Of a stretch of 64,000 nt of DNA, positions 22,989 to 31,077 are shown piece after piece. The number at the start of each line of letters is the position of its first letter. The stretch's first letter is position 1. Source of the stretch: Conexibacter arvalis (GTDB lineage Bacteria > Actinomycetota > Thermoleophilia > Solirubrobacterales > Solirubrobacteraceae); the NCBI RefSeq assembly GCF_014199525.1, contig NZ_JACHNU010000001.1, positions 1,280,182 to 1,344,181 on the forward strand. The letters run 5' to 3'. The position numbers were made by a program, and so were the translations under genes. A model generated the notes under the pieces. The model was not told where the DNA came from and did no database searches. It saw only the letters and a list, made by a program, of their open reading frames with translations.

Positions 22989-24053
22989 TTACGGGTCCGG
23001 CACGCTGTCGGCCAGAGGCGCGTCCGGGCGGCGGGGAAGCTCCCCGCCGTTCCGAGCGGAGATCTCGAACGTGATCGTGCGCAACAGCTTGCTCGTGTCG
23101 CCTGCGAGATAGGCCTGCGCGACTCTCGCGAGCTCGTCGGCCGCGGAGACCGGCAGGACGTAGTCGAACACGTGGGCCAGCGCCAGCTTCGAATGCTGCG
23201 ACCACTCGCCGTCGATGACCAACACCCCGATCAGGTCGCTGTGCCGCCCCTTCCAATTGATCGCCGAGAACATCTTGTCCTTGGCGTAGAGGCTCGAGTG
23301 CCGAGCCGAGCTGCGGCGCACCTCGACGAACAGCTTCGGAGCGGTCGCATCCGGTACGACGAAGTCGGCGCGGTGGTCGTACACGACCCCCGCGAGCGCC
23401 TTGTACTCCGTCTCGCGCTGGAACGCTACGCCATGACGTCTGAAGGCCGCTTCCACCACCGCCTCGAGGAGGTAGCGGCCGAGCAGGTCGCGCGCCTGGC
23501 CCTCGAGCGTCGAGCCAAGGCGCTCGACGAGGCGCTTGGGATCGACGTCGCCCGTGAGACGCGGGAGGAGGAAGTCCACGGCACGAGCGGCGGCACGCGG
23601 CGACATGCCGGTATCGGAGATGGTCCCGACCGCCTTCCGCAGCACAGACATGCTGAACACGCCCGCGGCATGCATGTAGATCGGAAGCAGCTCCGGCTCG
23701 TCGTGGAGCACATCGGCCTCGAGCGTCGTGAACCCGTCGGAGAGCACCGCCGCGCGTCGGGCGAGCGAGAGCGCATGCGCTTGCATCTCGATGTAGAGCG
23801 GTCCGGCCACGGCCGACTGGATGTCGTGGTCGATGGCGCGTCGTCCGCTGTGGAGCGCATGGGCGGCTTGGGCGGTCTCGGGCATCTCGTGCGCTTGAAC
23901 GCCTTTGCCGCCGAGGAGGAACAACCGCCACTCCCGCTTCTCGAAGTGCGAGGGCCCGACGTCGTCGAGACCGCGCGTTGCTTCGAGCAGCTCCAGGTAG
24001 TCGCCGATCAGGCGCAGCGTGGCATCCTTGCCGAACTGGTAGAGCGTCTGCAT
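22989..24053 (-). CDS. putative PD-(D/E)XK-type restriction nuclease partner
   Basis: 354 residues. The first 195 are helical with no recognised domain. The C-terminal part (about 196-300) has the order of a PD-(D/E)XK nuclease: helix with Glu201, an Asp in DHRADFVV (Asp230), a strand KLFVEV with Glu244, then Arg246 where the classical lysine sits, and a following helix with YAKDKMFSAIN (Lys258, Lys260) that could supply the missing lysine. The start ATG overlaps the stop of the methyltransferase gene by one base (TGATG), so the two are translated together. Sampled G+C is about 60-65%, below the neighbours. Nuclease assignment is my inference from motif order, not a recognised family match. 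Confidence 0.55.
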   Translation of the reverse strand: MQTLYQFGKDATLRLIGDYLELLEATRGLDDVGPSHFEKREWRLFLLGGKGVQAHEMPETAQAAHALHSGRRAIDHDIQSAVAGPLYIEMQAHALSLARRAAVLSDGFTTLEADVLHDEPELLPIYMHAAGVFSMSVLRKAVGTISDTGMSPRAAARAVDFLLPRLTGDVDPKRLVERLGSTLEGQARDLLGRYLLEAVVEAAFRRHGVAFQRETEYKALAGVVYDHRADFVVPDATAPKLFVEVRRSSARHSSLYAKDKMFSAINWKGRHSDLIGVLVIDGEWSQHSKLALAHVFDYVLPVSAADELARVAQAYLAGDTSKLLRTITFEISARNGGELPRRPDAPLADSVPDP

Positions 24054-25306
24054 CAGCGGCGGTTCCGCGGGACGTGCGGCGCCTCTGCTCCGGTGACGGT
24101 CAGCGGATGGTGCCTGTCGACGCTGCGCCACTTCGGGATCGGAACCCTGAAGTACGCTCCGCGTTCGTCGCGAACGACCGAGCGGGCAAAGCCGTCCAAG
24201 AGCGACTGCGTGCTCTTCGCCCGGCGAAGGCGGAGATAGGCGCGGACGATCATCGGATAGCGGATGACGAGGAGTGGTTCCACGAGGAATCCCTGCGTCA
24301 TCGCCTGGGACGCGAGCTCGCCCAGCATGAACCGAGGCATCTCCTCGAGCGCCTCCGCATTCGACGCTTCGGGCAGATGGATGCGATAGCGCTTCGCCAG
24401 GGACTTCCGGTTGCTGCCGATGAAGCACCGGCGGTACTCGCCTCCGAAGGTCACGAACATCATGGCGTTGTCCTGCGCCATCTCGAGTGCCGGTCCGATC
24501 GTGTCGGCGCACGTCACGAACGGGTCGAGGTCGATCAGATCGAACTTCTCGTCGGGCCGCTCCAGGAGTCGGCGCAGCAGCGCACGTCGCGCGGTGTCGA
24601 TCTCGATCTCAACCCGGCCGGGCTCCGTGATCGCCCCGGCCAATCTGCTGGCCGTCTCGGCGTTCTCCTCGACGGCGACGAACGTCGCCTGCGGGAGCAC
24701 GTCCATGTACTGGACCGTGCTGATTCCCTCGCCGGCGTATCCGTCGAAGACGCGCTTCGCATGCGTCGCCGTCGCCTGGACGACGGCGACGTTCACGGCG
24801 CGCTTGTGGTCGGTGCAGATGGCGAACGGGTTCTTCTTCCGGTGGCCGTAGTCTCTGCGTGCTGCGTACAGGCGCTTCTCGCAGTGCTCGAAGTCGACCT
24901 CGAAGATGAGCGCGATCTTCCACGCTGGCAGCCCGGCCGCGAACAGCTCATTGGCGCACGCTTCCGCTTCAGGGGTCCAGTTCGCGGATCCAAGGCTGCG
25001 CCCCGCCTGCGTGAAGATCTCGCCGCGTTCTCTGCAGAGCTCGAGGAGCTTGAAGATGATGTCCTGCGGATTGCGGTTGAGCGCAGCGGTGATCGCGTTG
25101 AACGTCGCACCGTCGCGCCACTGTTCGAACGCCCACTCCAGCTCGTGCTCCGACCAGCGCCGGGGCTTCGTGTAGCGGCCGCGCAGCGGAACGGGCAGGG
25201 GACGGTCGCGGAAACCGTGCCGCTCCAGGATCTCCAGAAACGCCGCGTCGTGAGAGCTGGCCGCTGCACGCTCGAACAGCGCGCCCTGTGACAGGGAGTC
25301 AATCAC
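24053..25306 (-). CDS. SAM-dependent methyltransferase with two Myb-like repeats (putative modification enzyme)
   Basis: 417 residues from GTG 25306. Residues about 50-92 and 109-150 each begin with Trp-(Ser/Thr)-x-x-(x)-Glu and look like Myb/SANT or helix-turn-helix repeats, suggesting DNA binding. A Rossmann methyltransferase domain follows: SAM motif VFDGYAGEGIST (187-198), acidic end of strand 2 in VAVEEN (Glu213) and FDLIDLDPF (255-263). DLDPF resembles the Trm1 tRNA-guanine methyltransferases and is not a standard DNA-methylase motif (NPPY, DPPY, GPPC). Fusion to DNA-binding repeats and coupling to a nuclease-like gene favour a DNA modification role. Sampled lines run 58-62% G+C. Start chosen because of the -10 box upstream. 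Confidence 0.6.
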   Translation of the reverse strand: MIDSLSQGALFERAAASSHDAAFLEILERHGFRDRPLPVPLRGRYTKPRRWSEHELEWAFEQWRDGATFNAITAALNRNPQDIIFKLLELCRERGEIFTQAGRSLGSANWTPEAEACANELFAAGLPAWKIALIFEVDFEHCEKRLYAARRDYGHRKKNPFAICTDHKRAVNVAVVQATATHAKRVFDGYAGEGISTVQYMDVLPQATFVAVEENAETASRLAGAITEPGRVEIEIDTARRALLRRLLERPDEKFDLIDLDPFVTCADTIGPALEMAQDNAMMFVTFGGEYRRCFIGSNRKSLAKRYRIHLPEASNAEALEEMPRFMLGELASQAMTQGFLVEPLLVIRYPMIVRAYLRLRRAKSTQSLLDGFARSVVRDERGAYFRVPIPKWRSVDRHHPLTVTGAEAPHVPRNRR

Positions 25307-25447: not shown

Positions 25448-25519
25448 TGGGCGCGGGTGGTTTCGAACCACCGACCTCTCGCGTGTGAAGCGAGCGCTCT
25501 CCCACTGAGCTACGCGCCC
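25448..25519 (-). tRNA. tRNA-Val(CAC)
   Basis: 72 bases, acceptor stem GGGCGCG / CGCGCCC with discriminator A, T arm around TTCGAAA, anticodon loop TTCACAC giving anticodon CAC. CCA not encoded. Confidence 0.93.
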
Positions 25520-25637: not shown

Positions 25638-26360
25638 GTGAAGCGAGCGATCGTTCTCGCAGGCGGACTGGGCACGCGGCTGCGCCCGTTCACGACGGTC
25701 CTGCCGAAGCCGCTGATGCCGATCGGGGACCGACCCGTGCTCGACATCATCATGCGCCAGCTGAAGGGCTCCGGCTTCGAGCGCGTGACGATCGCGACCG
25801 GCTACCTCGCCGAGCTGCTGGAGGCGTTCTTCCGCGACGGCGAGGCCTACGACCTGCCGGTCGACTACTACCGCGAGGGCGCGCCGCTCGGGACGGTCGG
25901 CGCGCTGGCGCTGATCGACGGCATCGACGACGACGTGCTCGTGATGAACGGCGACGTGCTGACCGACATGGACTTCGGCGCGCTGCTGGAGCGCCACAGA
26001 GCGAGCGACGCCGCGGCGACGATCGCGACGAAGAAGCGCGAGATCCAGATCTCGCTCGGCGTGCTCAAGTTCGGCGACGACGGCGACCCGACCCGCCTGA
26101 CCGACTACGACGAGAAGCCGACGATCGACTTCGAGGCGAGCATGGGCGTCTACTGCTTCTCGCCGCGCGCGCTCAGATACATCGAGCCCGGCGAGCGGCT
26201 CGACTTCCCGGACCTCGCGCTGCGGCTTGTCGCGGCCGGCGAGGTCGTGCGGGCGTGGAGATGCGACGACTTCTGGCTCGACATCGGCCGCCACGAGGAC
26301 TACGAGCAGGCGCAGGAGGAGTTCGAGCGCCTGCGCGACCGCCTCATCCCGTCCGCGTGA
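25638..26360 (+). CDS. sugar-1-phosphate nucleotidyltransferase
   Basis: 240 residues. GTG start 6 bases after a perfect AAGGAGG. The N-terminal nucleotide-binding signature is AGGLGTRLRPFT, the sugar-phosphate lysine lies in LPKPLMPIGDRP, and the metal-binding Asp in VLVMNGDVLTD. It belongs to the NTP_transferase family (RmlA / mannose-1-phosphate guanylyltransferase type) and makes an activated sugar from a sugar 1-phosphate and an NTP. Sugar and base cannot be told. It opens the glycan region. The convergent aminotransferase gene overlaps its 3' end by 17 bases. Confidence 0.9.
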   Translation: MKRAIVLAGGLGTRLRPFTTVLPKPLMPIGDRPVLDIIMRQLKGSGFERVTIATGYLAELLEAFFRDGEAYDLPVDYYREGAPLGTVGALALIDGIDDDVLVMNGDVLTDMDFGALLERHRASDAAATIATKKREIQISLGVLKFGDDGDPTRLTDYDEKPTIDFEASMGVYCFSPRALRYIEPGERLDFPDLALRLVAAGEVVRAWRCDDFWLDIGRHEDYEQAQEEFERLRDRLIPSA

Positions 26361-27474
26361 GCGCCTGCTCGACGGCGTCGAGCAGGAACCCCATCCCGTC
26401 GTCGCCGAGCGCCGCGTAGAGCGGCAGCAGGCAGGTCCGCGCCGCGGCCGCCTCGGCCTGCGGGCGGGCGCCGCCGGGCACCTCGCGGTAGGCGCTGAAG
26501 GCGTGCAGCGCCGGCAGCGTCTCGCTCGGCACGCCGAGCTCGTCCAGCGCGGCGGCGAAGCGGTCGCGCCGGGCGCCGTCGGGGAGCGCGAGCGGCAGCG
26601 CCGCCGGACTGGCCGCCTCGACCGACAGCGCGTTGAAGACGAGCGCGACGTCGTCGCGCCCCCGCAGGCGCTCGCGAGCGCGGGCGAGCAGCGCCCGCCG
26701 GCCGTCGACCTCGCCCGCCAGCCGCTCCAGGCGCGTCAGCGCGAGCGCCGCGCGCGGCTCGTCGAGGCGGAAGTTGTAGCCGGCGTCGACGACGTCGTAG
26801 CGCGGGTCGTGGCCGCGGTGGCGGTCCCACGTGCCGCTCGTCATCGCGTGCGAGCGCAGCGATCTCACTCGGGCGGCGTGCGACTCGTCCGCGGCGACGA
26901 CGAGGCCGCCTTCGCCGATCGCGAGCTGGCGGCCGGCGGCGAAGCTGAAGACGCCGAGCGCGCCCGCGACGCCGGCGCCCGGTGCGCCGAGCGCGCTCGA
27001 GCAGTCCTCGACCAGCACGAGCCCGCGCGCGTCGGCCAGCTCCCGCAGCGCGGCGGCGTCGGCGAGGTGGCCGTGGAGGTGGACCGCGACGATCGCGCGC
27101 GTGCGCGGCCCGATCGCCGGCTCGACCTGCTTGGGGCCGGCGTGCGGCGCGAGCGGGTCGGCGACGTCGCACAGCACCGGGACGGCGCCGAGCGCGGCGA
27201 CCGCCGCGGCCGCCGAGACCGGCGCGAGCGCCGGCACGACGACCTCGTCGCCGCGGCCGACCCCGGCCGCCTGCAGCGCCAGCTGGAGTCCCGCCGTGCC
27301 GGAGGAGACGGCGAGCGCGTGGGCGGCGCCGGTCAGCTCGCCGAGCCGCTGCTCGAGCGCCTGCGTCCGCGGCCCCATCGTCAGCCAGCCGGAGCGCAGG
27401 CAGTCGAGCACCGCCTCGACGTCGGCCTCGCAGCTCGTCTCGTCGACGAGCGAGATCCGCGTCGGCGCGCTCAT
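26344..27474 (-). CDS. DegT/DnrJ/EryC1-family protein lacking the catalytic lysine
   Basis: 376 residues with the fold I aminotransferase pattern: SSGTAGLQLAL near residue 58, the PLP-ring aspartate in LVEDCSSALGA (Asp157) and a GYNFRLDEPRAALAL C-terminal motif. In the PLP-lysine motif, FSF-x-x-x-K-x-L-x-x-GEGG, this protein has Arg182 (FSFAAGRQLAIGEGG). Loss of the Schiff-base lysine rules out ordinary transamination. ColD-type dehydratases also lack this lysine but use histidine. It may be a pseudoenzyme pairing with the intact paralogue immediately upstream, whose stop overlaps its start (ATGA). Confidence 0.85.
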   Translation of the reverse strand: MSAPTRISLVDETSCEADVEAVLDCLRSGWLTMGPRTQALEQRLGELTGAAHALAVSSGTAGLQLALQAAGVGRGDEVVVPALAPVSAAAAVAALGAVPVLCDVADPLAPHAGPKQVEPAIGPRTRAIVAVHLHGHLADAAALRELADARGLVLVEDCSSALGAPGAGVAGALGVFSFAAGRQLAIGEGGLVVAADESHAARVRSLRSHAMTSGTWDRHRGHDPRYDVVDAGYNFRLDEPRAALALTRLERLAGEVDGRRALLARARERLRGRDDVALVFNALSVEAASPAALPLALPDGARRDRFAAALDELGVPSETLPALHAFSAYREVPGGARPQAEAAAARTCLLPLYAALGDDGMGFLLDAVEQALTRTG

Positions 27475-28598
27475 GCGGCCACCGCCTCGGCGAGCGCGCC
27501 GACGACGCGGTCCTGCTCGGCCTCGGTCATCGTCGGGAACAGCGGCAGCGTCAGCTCGGTCCGCGCCGCGTGCTCGGTGCGCGGCAGCGACACGTCCGGG
27601 AAGCGCTCGCGGTACGCGGTGAAGCCGTGCACCGCGGCGTAGAGGATGCTCGTCTGGATCCCCTGCTCGCGCAGCCGGCGGCTGACCTCCACCTGTCTGT
27701 CCTCCTCGAGCATCACCGGCATCACGTACGCCGAGCAGGTCGCGACGTCGGCGTCGTCGTAGGGGACGAGCACGCCGTCGAGGCCCGCGAGCAGCTCGCG
27801 GTAGCGCAGCGTCAGCTCCCGCCGCCGCTCGACGTCGGCGCGCAGCCGTCTCATCCGCGACAGCAGCAGCGCCGCGTGCGGCTCGTCCATCCGGTAGTTG
27901 AAGCCGACCCCTTCGACGTCGCGCGAGCCGTCGGCCCCCCGCACCACGCCGAGCGAGCGACGCGAGCGCGCGAAGGCGGCGACGTCGTCGTCGTCGGTGC
28001 AGAGCAGCCCGCCCTCGCCGGCCGACAGCACCTTGTTGGAGAAGAAGCTGAAGGCGCCGGCCAGGCCGAACGTGCCCAACGCCCGCCCGCCGAGCGACGC
28101 GTCCGGCGCGTGGGCGGCATCCTCGATCAGCGCCAGCCCGCGCTCGTCGCAGAGCGCGGCGAGCCGGTCGGCGGCGGCGGCGTAGCCGGCGAAGTGGACG
28201 ACCGCGACCGCCTTCGTGCGCTCCGTGATGCGGCGCGCGACGTCGTCGGGGTCGAGGCTCGGGCGCTCGCGGCCGACGATCTCCGCGAAGACCGGCGTCG
28301 CGCCGCACTGGAGCACCGCGCTCGCCGTCGCGGCCATCGTGTACGAGGGGACGATCACCTCGTCGCCGGGCCCGACGCCGGCCGCCAGGTAGGCGAGGTG
28401 GAGCGCGGCGGTGCAGCTGGAGAGCGCGATCGCGTGGCGGGCGCCGAGGTGGGCGGCGAACGCCTGCTCGAAGCGCTCGGTCCGCTCGCCGAGCGCGAGA
28501 CGTCCCGAGCGGATCGTCTCGGCGACCGCGGCGAGGTCGTCGTCCTCGATCCGCAGGTCGAACAGCGGGATGCTGGGATTGCCGGTTCCGGAGCTCAT
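27471..28598 (-). CDS. DegT/DnrJ/EryC1-family sugar aminotransferase
   Basis: 375 residues with all hallmarks: ALSSCTAALHLAY, IVPSYTMAATASAV, LIEDAAHAPDA with Asp160, FSFFSNKVLSAGEGG with the PLP lysine Lys189, and the NYRMDEPHAALL motif. It should transfer an amino group from glutamate to a keto nucleotide sugar for surface glycan synthesis. A TAGCGT -10-like box lies 13 bases before the ATG (leader of about six bases). First gene of a two-gene unit with the Lys-to-Arg paralogue. Confidence 0.9.
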   Translation of the reverse strand: MSSGTGNPSIPLFDLRIEDDDLAAVAETIRSGRLALGERTERFEQAFAAHLGARHAIALSSCTAALHLAYLAAGVGPGDEVIVPSYTMAATASAVLQCGATPVFAEIVGRERPSLDPDDVARRITERTKAVAVVHFAGYAAAADRLAALCDERGLALIEDAAHAPDASLGGRALGTFGLAGAFSFFSNKVLSAGEGGLLCTDDDDVAAFARSRRSLGVVRGADGSRDVEGVGFNYRMDEPHAALLLSRMRRLRADVERRRELTLRYRELLAGLDGVLVPYDDADVATCSAYVMPVMLEEDRQVEVSRRLREQGIQTSILYAAVHGFTAYRERFPDVSLPRTEHAARTELTLPLFPTMTEAEQDRVVGALAEAVAA

Positions 28599-28646
28599 CG
28601 CGAGGCGCGGAACGCTACCGTCCCTGAGCCGGAGCCGCGTCGCCCG

Positions 28647-29417
28647 ATGATCGATCTGCACTGCCACATCCTCGCCGGACTGGACGACGGGCCCGCCGAT
28701 CTGGAGGCCAGCGTCGCGCTCGCCCGCCGCCAGGTCGCCGCCGGCGTGGACACGGTCGTCGCCACGCCGCACGTCTCGGCCGCCTACCCCGACGTCGACG
28801 CCGCGGCGGCGGACGCCGCGGCCGAGCGGCTGCGCGAGCGGCTCGCCGCGGAGCGGATCGAGCTGCGGCTGCTGACCGCCGGCGAGCTGGCGGCCGATCG
28901 CGCCGTGCGGCTCGAGGACGGCGAGCTGGAGCGGCTGCGGCTCGGCGACGGCCCGTGGCTGCTGGTCGAGGCGCCGCTCGGCGTCCGCGAGGTCGGCTTC
29001 GACGTCCTCATGCGCCAGCTGCGCGCGCGCGGGCACGAGATCCTGATCGCCCATCCCGAGCGCTCCCCGGACTTCCGCCGGCGGCCGGAGGTGCTGCGCG
29101 GGCTGGTCGCGGACGGCATGCGCGTCCAGGCGACCGCCGGCGCCTTCGACGGGCGCTTCGGCGGGCTCGTCCAGCGCACGGCGCGCGGCCTGCTGGAGGC
29201 GGGTCTCGTCCACGTCGTCGCCTCCGACGCCCACGACGACCGCGTGCGCGCCCCCGGCCTGGCGAGCGCGCTGGAGGCGGTCGGCGCCGATCCCGACCAG
29301 GTGCGATCGCTGACCGAGACCGCGCCGGCGGCGATCCTCGCCGGGACGGAGCTGCCGGCGGCGCCGCGGCTGGCCGCCCGGCGCCTGCGCCGGCCGGGCT
29401 GGCTGCGGCGCGGCTGA
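28647..29417 (+). CDS. PHP-domain tyrosine phosphatase (CpsB/YwqE type)
   Basis: 256 residues. Metal-binding PHP motifs: DLHCHILAGLDDGP at the N terminus, TPHVS, AHPER and ASDAHDD. These are the histidine clusters of CapC/CpsB/YwqE phosphatases, which dephosphorylate the bacterial tyrosine kinases that control capsule export. Two kinase-like ATPases are encoded further along (43971-45299 and 60626-62146), giving possible substrates. Basic Arg-rich C terminus. Its stop is one base from the convergent beta-helix gene. Confidence 0.85.
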   Translation: MIDLHCHILAGLDDGPADLEASVALARRQVAAGVDTVVATPHVSAAYPDVDAAAADAAAERLRERLAAERIELRLLTAGELAADRAVRLEDGELERLRLGDGPWLLVEAPLGVREVGFDVLMRQLRARGHEILIAHPERSPDFRRRPEVLRGLVADGMRVQATAGAFDGRFGGLVQRTARGLLEAGLVHVVASDAHDDRVRAPGLASALEAVGADPDQVRSLTETAPAAILAGTELPAAPRLAARRLRRPGWLRRG

Positions 29418-29418
29418 C

Positions 29419-31077
29419 TCAGCGCAGCGCGGCGCCGAGCGCGAACGGGCCGCCGCGTCTCAGCGGCGCCCCGAAGTAGTCGGCCGGGCCCGGGGCGCCT
29501 GCGTCGACCCCGGCGCCGCGGATCGGCGACTCGGGGCGCGGCCGGTAGGCGTCGAGCTGCGTCAGCCGGCGCGGGTCGTCGATCGTCGGGCCGCCCCCGG
29601 CGTCGACGAGCAGCGGGTCGGCGAAGCGGCCGACCGCGCGCCCGTCGACCCGCTCCTGCCCGGTCGCGGCGCGCCACGCCTCCAGCGACCCGTGGCGGCG
29701 GCCGGCATCGGTGACCGAGAACGGCTCCCCGGCGGTCCAGTAGAGGTTGCCGCGGAAGCGCAGCCCGGGCTGGTCGGCGGCGGCGTCGACCAGCGGCAGC
29801 CCGCCGGTCGTGTAGAGCACGTTGTTGGCGACCAGCGCGCTCGTCGTGCCGTAGACCCCGATCGCGGCCGGTCTGCCGCCGGGCGGCGGCGACAGGTAGA
29901 CGGTGTTGTTGTGAACGCGCGTGCCGGCGTTGGAGCTGCCGTCGTTGCCGACGAGGATCGCCGGCAGCCCGCCGCGCCGCGAGTCGTCCTGGCTGATGTT
30001 GAAGCGCACGACGTTGCCGCGGACCTCGTGCGGCGCGCCGGTCCAGTTGTAGACCATGAAGCCGGCGCCGTCGTTGTCGTGGCTGTAGTTGTGCTGGACG
30101 ACGCAGCCGATCGTGCCGCCGTCGAGGTCGAAGCCGTCGCCGTCGCGGCCGCCCGGCCCCGATCTGTTGCGGTAGGACTCGTTGCGCTCGATCGTCACGT
30201 CGCGCGCGATCGCGGCCCAGATCCCGACCGGCCCGCAGTTGCGGCAGGCGTTGAGCGAGCCGTTGTCGTGCGCGACCGAGTGGGTGATCGCGCCGCCGTC
30301 GACGTTGCTGAGGAAGATCCCGCTGCCCGAGTGGTTGGCGGTGAAGCGGGGATCGCCGTGGTTGTCGTACGCGCGGCAGCGGTCGATGCGCGCGTCGGCG
30401 TTGGCGAACCGTCTCGTGCGGCGGTCCTCGATCCCGCCGACGTAGACGCCGTAGCGGCGGTTGTCGTGCGCGACGCAGTCGGAGATGCGGATCGTGCGGA
30501 AGCCGCTCTGGGAGCGGTCGGCCGGCCGACCGTGGACGGCGATGCCGGCGACGCCGAAGCCGCTCGCCTCGACGCGCGCGATCGAGATCCCGGTCAGGCG
30601 TCTCGCGCGCGGGAGCGTGTTGCGGAACTCGACGCCGCTGCCGCGGTTGTCGAGCGGTCCGGAGCCGACCAGCCGCAGGTCGCTCACGCGCACCCGTCCG
30701 GCGTTGAGCACGAGCACGGCGGAGGCGCGGCCGGAGCGGATCGTCGCGCGCCCGCCGCCGTAGGAGCCGATCGCGACCGCTCTGCCGCGCGCGCCGGCGT
30801 CGTCGGGCCCGAGTCGCAGCTGTCCGCGGAACTCGGCTCCGCCGCGCAGCAGCACGCGGTCGCCGGGGCGCAGGCGCGCGCGGTTGACGCGCGCGAGCGA
30901 GCGCCACGGCTCGCTCGCGGTCCCGGCGGCGCGGTCGTCGCCGTCGGGGCTGACGTGGAAGGTGCGAGCGGCGAGGGCGCCGTCGCAGCTCACGAGCGCG
31001 ACCACCGCCGCGAGCGCGGCCAGCGCGGCGACGACCAGCGGGACCGCGAGACGGCGCGGGGGAAGGGCGACGCGCAT
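29419..31077 (-). CDS. secreted right-handed beta-helix protein
   Basis: 552 residues. N-terminal hydrophobic signal or anchor (about residues 10-35) followed by a TFHVSPDGDDRAAGTASEPW segment typical of exported parallel beta-helix (PbH1) proteins. Many Asn/Gly-rich coils of the VxxNxxxxN type follow (for example NNTVYLS, ANNVLYTT). Such proteins are often polysaccharide lyases or epimerases acting outside the cell; no specific catalytic set is identifiable. Within the glycan locus a role in cutting or editing the exported polymer is plausible. Confidence 0.8.
   Translation of the reverse strand: MRVALPPRRLAVPLVVAALAALAAVVALVSCDGALAARTFHVSPDGDDRAAGTASEPWRSLARVNRARLRPGDRVLLRGGAEFRGQLRLGPDDAGARGRAVAIGSYGGGRATIRSGRASAVLVLNAGRVRVSDLRLVGSGPLDNRGSGVEFRNTLPRARRLTGISIARVEASGFGVAGIAVHGRPADRSQSGFRTIRISDCVAHDNRRYGVYVGGIEDRRTRRFANADARIDRCRAYDNHGDPRFTANHSGSGIFLSNVDGGAITHSVAHDNGSLNACRNCGPVGIWAAIARDVTIERNESYRNRSGPGGRDGDGFDLDGGTIGCVVQHNYSHDNDGAGFMVYNWTGAPHEVRGNVVRFNISQDDSRRGGLPAILVGNDGSSNAGTRVHNNTVYLSPPPGGRPAAIGVYGTTSALVANNVLYTTGGLPLVDAAADQPGLRFRGNLYWTAGEPFSVTDAGRRHGSLEAWRAATGQERVDGRAVGRFADPLLVDAGGGPTIDDPRRLTQLDAYRPRPESPIRGAGVDAGAPGPADYFGAPLRRGGPFALGAALR

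Follow-up and report, generated by a model that had tools for sequence, protein, structure and literature searches.

Two adjacent genes within the window, the 64,000-nucleotide stretch of the Conexibacter arvalis genome that was analysed, very probably form a compact Type II restriction-modification (RM) system in which modification falls to an enzyme of the tRNA m2,2G methylase lineage. The pair combines a nuclease fold of the restriction type, a conserved pairing of methylase and nuclease genes, an exchange of the methylase partner and conserved residues of catalytic type, and a helix-turn-helix (HTH) is present in the wider methylase family. We infer from this that the substrate is DNA, that both enzymes have a recognition site in common and that the system would restrict phages. 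A restriction-modification role had been suggested in an initial annotation, and this reading is strongly supported by the nuclease fold and by the conserved pairing, in which most relatives have a classical DNA methylase. What is unusual is that an enzyme of Trm1 lineage takes the place of the SPPY methylase that otherwise precedes this nuclease, which suggests that an RNA-type enzyme has been recruited to DNA.

Gene pair and genomic setting

Both open reading frames announced in the initial annotation, a GTG-started methylase and a second gene coupled to it, are intact and of the expected length (417 and 354 aa), and the coupling by TGATG and the adjacent tRNA-Val were both found as described. 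The features are as follows.

24053..25306, minus strand: Trm1-like SAM methyltransferase, proposed modification enzyme (417 aa, GTG start at 25306, N-terminal HTH-like units)
25022..25168, minus strand: first HTH/Myb-like three-helix unit, residues 47-95 (predicted helices 53-64, 69-76, 80-94)
24851..24991, minus strand: second three-helix unit, residues 106-152 (predicted helices 112-123, 128-134, 139-149), HTH-like by prediction only
24215..24805, minus strand: Trm1-type SAM-dependent methyltransferase domain, residues 168-364, from Pfam TRM and fold matches
24716..24751, minus strand: SAM-binding motif I, VFDGYAGEGIST, with AGEG invariant across the family
24518..24532, minus strand: putative catalytic motif IV, DLDPF, residues 259-263, invariant in the 4/4 RM-linked methylases
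24051..24055, minus strand: TGATG, in which the methylase stop and the nuclease start overlap by one base, coupling the two genes
22989..24053, minus strand: predicted PD-(D/E)XK restriction endonuclease (354 aa), from the AlphaFold model and the PspGI match
23250..23372, minus strand: predicted nuclease active-site region, RAD(230)F...E(244)VR(246)...YAK(258)DK(260)MFSAINWK, with the named residues invariant in 30/30 homologues
25448..25519, minus strand: tRNA-Val (CAC) adjoining the pair, a possible insertion point

The distance between the methylase and nuclease genes ranges from -20 to +67 bp in the relatives, and in the other Trm1-type pairs the genes overlap by 4-8 bp.

The G+C content of the pair had been noted as low. 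It is indeed lower than that of the surroundings, but the difference was overstated: the value is 67.0% where 58-65% had been given, and the window as a whole has 74.0%. This still places the pair in the lowest 0.1% of stretches of the same length. The GC3 of the two genes is 0.86-0.88 versus about 0.96 in four adjacent genes of this high-GC bacterium. The pair is not present in 6 other genomes of the same genus, and the nuclease was not found in 395 other genomes sampled across the host phylum. Horizontal acquisition is therefore indicated, and the pair was probably gained in this way. The tRNA-Val gene is a possible point of insertion; no attachment-site repeats of 12 bp were found near it, and comparison with the closest matches for an empty site gave a neighbourhood without synteny. 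The adjacent genes at 25638-31077 of the window, which resemble those for sugar nucleotidyltransferase, aminotransferase and surface-polysaccharide functions, likewise lack synteny in the closest relatives.

The predicted nuclease

Judged by its predicted structure, the 354-aa protein is a true nuclease of the restriction type. The earlier proposal of a PD-(D/E)XK-like order of residues had been made to depend beforehand on the presence of a PD-(D/E)XK core, and this core is present in the AlphaFold model (pLDDT 89.4, pTM 0.80, with 30 sequences in the alignment), which shares the core alpha-beta fold of known members of the superfamily. PspGI is the best PDB match of the model, with a Foldseek E of 5.9e-4, the sole Foldseek match below 1e-3, and a VIA Z of 12.5 over 199 residues. 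The VIA matches that follow are mostly Type II enzymes (BsoBI, Ecl18kI, BsaWI, Bse634I, BstEII and SgrAI). MspJI appears in the Foldseek list at low rank, with an E of 0.09.

The residues D230, E244, R246, K258 and K260 singled out in the initial annotation, as well as D259, are invariant in all 30 aligned homologues, which come from many phyla. In terms of the D...(D/E)xK triad, D230 and E244 are invariant and Arg246 occupies the position of the Lys found in most PD-(D/E)XK enzymes, with the invariant K258/K260 in the next helix. The Lys of this triad is known to vary, being for example E, Q or N (PMC4081073). The missing active-site Lys may be supplied by K258 or K260.

In the CCGG family the active site is permuted, PD...K...D/E, and an R-(D/E)R recognition motif comes after it (PMC6344858). 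The nuclease runs D230...E244xR246...K258 in all 30 homologues, and the R-(D/E)R motif is absent after E244 from the family alignment. Since D...ExR...K is not the arrangement D...K...E seen in the CCGG family, the protein can be described as having the CCGG fold without the CCGG motif. Its fold agrees with that of PspGI, Ecl18kI, EcoRII and other Type II endonucleases of the CCGG family across some 200 residues, the helical N-terminal part among them, whereas it has no detectable sequence similarity to these enzymes, keeps D...ExR and lacks R-(D/E)R.

Searches of Pfam, NCBIfam, PADLOC and the PDB with the nuclease sequence gave nothing. PADLOC-DB 2.0.0 has no model for the window nuclease, with scattered single weak matches among the 30 family members. 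Homologues with 36-47% identity were found by scanning viral and genome collections, in Pseudomonadota, Cyanobacteriota, Bacillota, Bacteroidota, Actinomycetota, Planctomycetota, Acidobacteriota and other phyla; the window nuclease is divergent and lies on a long branch of the nuclease tree. The initial annotation had found no restriction family that the pair matches. The nuclease in itself is not unusual, belonging to a widespread family without a model in Pfam, NCBIfam or PADLOC; the odd part of the system is the methylase.

Methylase partners of the nuclease family

The census of partners covered 28 genome loci from many phyla, plus viral contigs. Wherever both the nuclease and the sequence upstream of it are intact, the gene immediately upstream on the same strand codes for a methylase, so that the pairing is conserved across genomes. 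Such adjacent methylase and nuclease genes, conserved as a pair, are as expected for a Type II RM system. Two loci are outside this count: L022, which begins at a contig end, and L034, with a truncated nuclease. The latter (L034:3971-4810, in a cyanobacterial MAG) is a decayed nuclease that has lost about 64 N-terminal residues and has no methylase at all; it looks like a remnant following loss of an RM system.

At 26 independent loci the partner is a classical amino-methylase with TSPPY, and 22/22 distinct proteins of this SPPY type that were scanned match Pfam N6_N4_Mtase (PF01555, "DNA methylase"). The SPPY motif is associated with m4C (PMC10855626). A Trm1-like partner takes the same position and order at four independent loci: the window, two IMG/VR virus contigs (L004 and L006; L005 is an identical copy of L004 and is not counted separately) and a SAR324 genome (L030). 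These four pairs, 35-60% identical, are all that were found in this analysis. In the unrooted nuclease tree, in which the window branch is long, one branch (support 83/86) sets the Trm1-paired members apart from the others, corresponding to one change of partner. No Trm1-type enzyme is present in the genomes carrying an SPPY pair and no SPPY-type enzyme in the window genome, where the methylase of the pair is the one PF02005 protein.

The SPPY-type m4C Type II systems (L002, L008-L021 and others) have a homologous nuclease, with gene order and spacing as in the window. Their PF01555 methylase, in contrast, is unrelated to the window methylase beyond the general SAM fold: the two types align with an hhalign probability of 10.6%, and past motif I they have no similarity and are not alignable. 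Because it occupies the same position and order before the same nuclease, the Trm1-like enzyme stands in for a DNA methylase and, most simply, is the DNA-modifying enzyme of the system. By analogy with the homologous nucleases partnered by a DNA methylase, both enzymes are likely to act on one DNA sequence, with the methylase protecting it.

Some of these loci are located on viral contigs. One such contig (L003) and the Sphingomonas endophytica chromosome (L014) have identical methylases of the SPPY type together with the same nuclease, and a serine-recombinase-like gene downstream on the viral contig suggests mobility. In a phage or prophage contig the Trm1-type pair of L006 (L037:4962-7197) is inserted among tail genes, which run on the other strand, and adjoins a tape-measure-like gene. 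Directly upstream of the pair at L004 is a gene (L036:2799-4808, equivalent to L004:1748-3757) for a 669-aa protein with an ATP-pyrophosphatase-like N-terminal part (LLLSGGADSTL) and a C-terminal C5-cytosine DNA methylase (DGSPPCSTFS). This methylase could contribute to protection at that locus.

Descent and likely product of the Trm1-type methylase

The 417-aa protein is related to Trm1, the tRNA (guanine26-N2)-dimethyltransferase (PF02005, TIGR00308), with which it has the SAM-domain fold and DLDPF in common. The Trm1-like motif DLDPF had been noticed in the initial annotation and is invariant in the four methylase relatives, all of which match Pfam TRM. For the window methylase this match (39.8 bits versus a cut-off of 27) is confined to residues 168-364 and covers positions 29-226 of the 376 in the profile, leaving most of the Trm1 C-terminal domain unmatched, and the TIGR00308 equivalog score is 30.7 versus 280.65 bits for the cut-off. 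Since the TRM match ends at profile position 226 and the equivalog score is far below its cut-off, descent from Trm1 is indicated, not orthology. The structural model, of middling confidence (pLDDT 72.6, from an alignment of 4 sequences), has Trm1 as its four best distinct PDB entries by Foldseek. By VIA the Aquifex and Pyrococcus Trm1 proteins score Z 18.9-20.9, the next family reaching 16.9. The structural match runs to Trm1 residue 305-308 or so, and the ends of the model are of low confidence. The four methylases have DLDPF, not the (D/N/S)PP(Y/F) of DNA amino-methyltransferases, and there is no PF01555 match. Unlike Trm1, the window methylase has N-terminal HTH units and is translationally coupled to a restriction nuclease. 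Fission yeast Trm1 needs a conserved Asp in its active site for N2-dimethylation, and this residue is proposed to deprotonate the guanine (PMC10652106). One Asp of the window DLDPF is likely to be its counterpart.

Homologues occurring alone as tRNA enzymes had been named as evidence that would speak against an RM role, and the close homologues were seen only adjoining the nuclease. A search for a solitary close Trm1-like tRNA enzyme in 398 Pseudomonadota, 52 SAR324-group, 396 own-phylum and 301 Chloroflexota genomes returned only the known pairs and five weak matches (18.7-22.1 bits), which are RsmD-like (LDPPF) or RlmD-like enzymes. No close Trm1-type pair was found in named cultured phages or plasmids, scanning DNA for the motif IV pattern brought in nothing beyond chance matches in tail genes, and a search of a viral structure library gave general SAM methyltransferases only.

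In the mechanism that we propose, the 354-aa protein would be a sequence-specific PD-(D/E)XK endonuclease that cuts unmodified incoming DNA. The N-terminal HTH module would guide the 417-aa enzyme to DNA, where its Trm1-type SAM domain would methylate an exocyclic amino group within the nuclease site and so block cleavage. The 417-aa enzyme would in this manner substitute for the m4C-type (SPPY) DNA methylase usual with this nuclease family. Judged by descent, the N2 of guanine would be the single most likely methylated base, at somewhat less than an even chance. Base specificity is plastic among amino-methyltransferases, and m6A and m4C together would be about as likely as guanine N2.

A serious alternative, almost as likely as not, has the same architecture with conventional chemistry: the Trm1-type domain, once recruited to DNA, would produce m6A or m4C, in which case the lineage alone would be new. 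The plastic choice of base, a matter of general knowledge, is compatible with such conventional chemistry. A nuclease of the same family presumably must be blocked at the same site, and its usual partner has the SPPY associated with m4C (PMC10855626). Motif IV has nevertheless kept the Trm1 form, DLDPF, in 4/4 RM-linked and nearly all phage enzymes, with no drift to (D/N/S)PP(Y/F). A methylase that still modifies tRNA or another RNA, the nuclease being countered otherwise or acting as a toxin on RNA, is unlikely. The Pfam TRM match above cut-off and the adjoining tRNA gene are in its favour; against it are the substitution for a DNA methylase before the same nuclease in the same place, the N-terminal HTH, the largely unmatched Trm1 C-terminal domain, the low equivalog score and the absence of a close standalone homologue from about 1,150 genomes of four phyla.

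Still less probable is a modification-dependent, Type IV-like nuclease, for which the methylase would mark DNA for cutting or have no protective role. The low-ranking MspJI match could be read in this way, but the fold is far nearer to classical Type IIP enzymes, and the coupled order of methylase then nuclease, standard for Type II, would be self-destructive for a modification-dependent cutter. We also give very little weight to the pair being an inactive remnant of a restriction system. The divergence of the window nuclease and the existence of a clearly decayed relative (L034) would fit this, whereas both window genes are full length, have all the conserved residues and keep their overlap.

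If the proposed RM system modifies guanine, the methylase may mark DNA with a guanine methyl group used by no known restriction system. To our knowledge, the restriction-linked DNA methylases described to date make m5C, m4C or m6A. In the open-access papers searched we found neither a restriction system with a Trm1-type modification enzyme nor a Trm1-like DNA methylase, and no enzymatic source of N2-methyl-dG in bacteria or phages. This base is otherwise treated as damage, for example as a formaldehyde adduct. N2-methylguanine in DNA is a plausible product that would be new if true, and with only two small genes in the system, the presence of a new DNA base can be tested directly.

More distant relatives of the methylase occur in phages. 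They were first found by a search with the SAM domain only, and a second scan gave 25 metagenomic phage contigs (L073-L097); the solitary proteins tested are essentially absent from named phages. The homologues found without a partner are all distant; they carry a fused HTH, frequently lie close to genes for DNA modification and are not in a tRNA context. The phage proteins, mostly of 224-301 aa (for example L067:4662-5396, L068:1313-2155 and L066:979-1731), consist of one HTH and a Trm1-type domain with DLDP, as in the window methylase, but are shorter, with a single HTH unit and no nuclease partner. The phage and RM-linked families align over HTH and methylase with an hhalign probability of 99.0 (E 6.8e-18), and a tree splits them cleanly. 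The phage methylase part matches Trm1 (2dul, E 2.3e-3). For the HTH part, the profile of the phage family gave the HTH protein 2lvs (E 3.7e-4), with weak matches to GcrA and Csa3.

Two Myb/HTH-like repeats had been claimed for the window methylase. Two three-helix units are indeed predicted at its N-terminus, with W51 and W110 unchanged across all four relatives. The first unit aligns by hhalign with the HTH of the phage family and is backed by profile matches to HTH proteins, whereas for the second the HTH-like character is a prediction only. The sequence similarity between the two units is not significant in an internal repeat test. The second lies in an insertion of the RM-linked form and is absent from the phage family, which has a gap at this place when the two are aligned.

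The company of the phage methylases is DNA modification and replication, not translation. In 20 phage loci the near neighbours include five N6/N4 and two C5 DNA methylases, one Mom protein and one PAPS-reductase-type protein, and a DNA methylase or Mom gene lies within two genes in 8 of the 20, as a raw count. Recombination genes (RecT, ERF, YqaJ, RusA, NinG) are also found nearby. This phage branch suggests that the same chemistry perhaps serves restriction evasion. The HTH-Trm1 enzymes, RM-linked and solitary alike, might then represent a DNA methyltransferase lineage that writes N2-methylguanine, a minor-groove mark, as a fourth class of enzymatic DNA methylation next to m5C, m4C and m6A, serving self-marking in restriction and evasion by phages; we regard this as possible and, on balance, doubtful. 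The motif (F/Y)DL(I/V)DLDP(F/Y/W)GS is present in 24/25 of the phage proteins. In one of them (L096:2950-3669) DLDGF replaces DLDPF, and this protein is possibly inactive.
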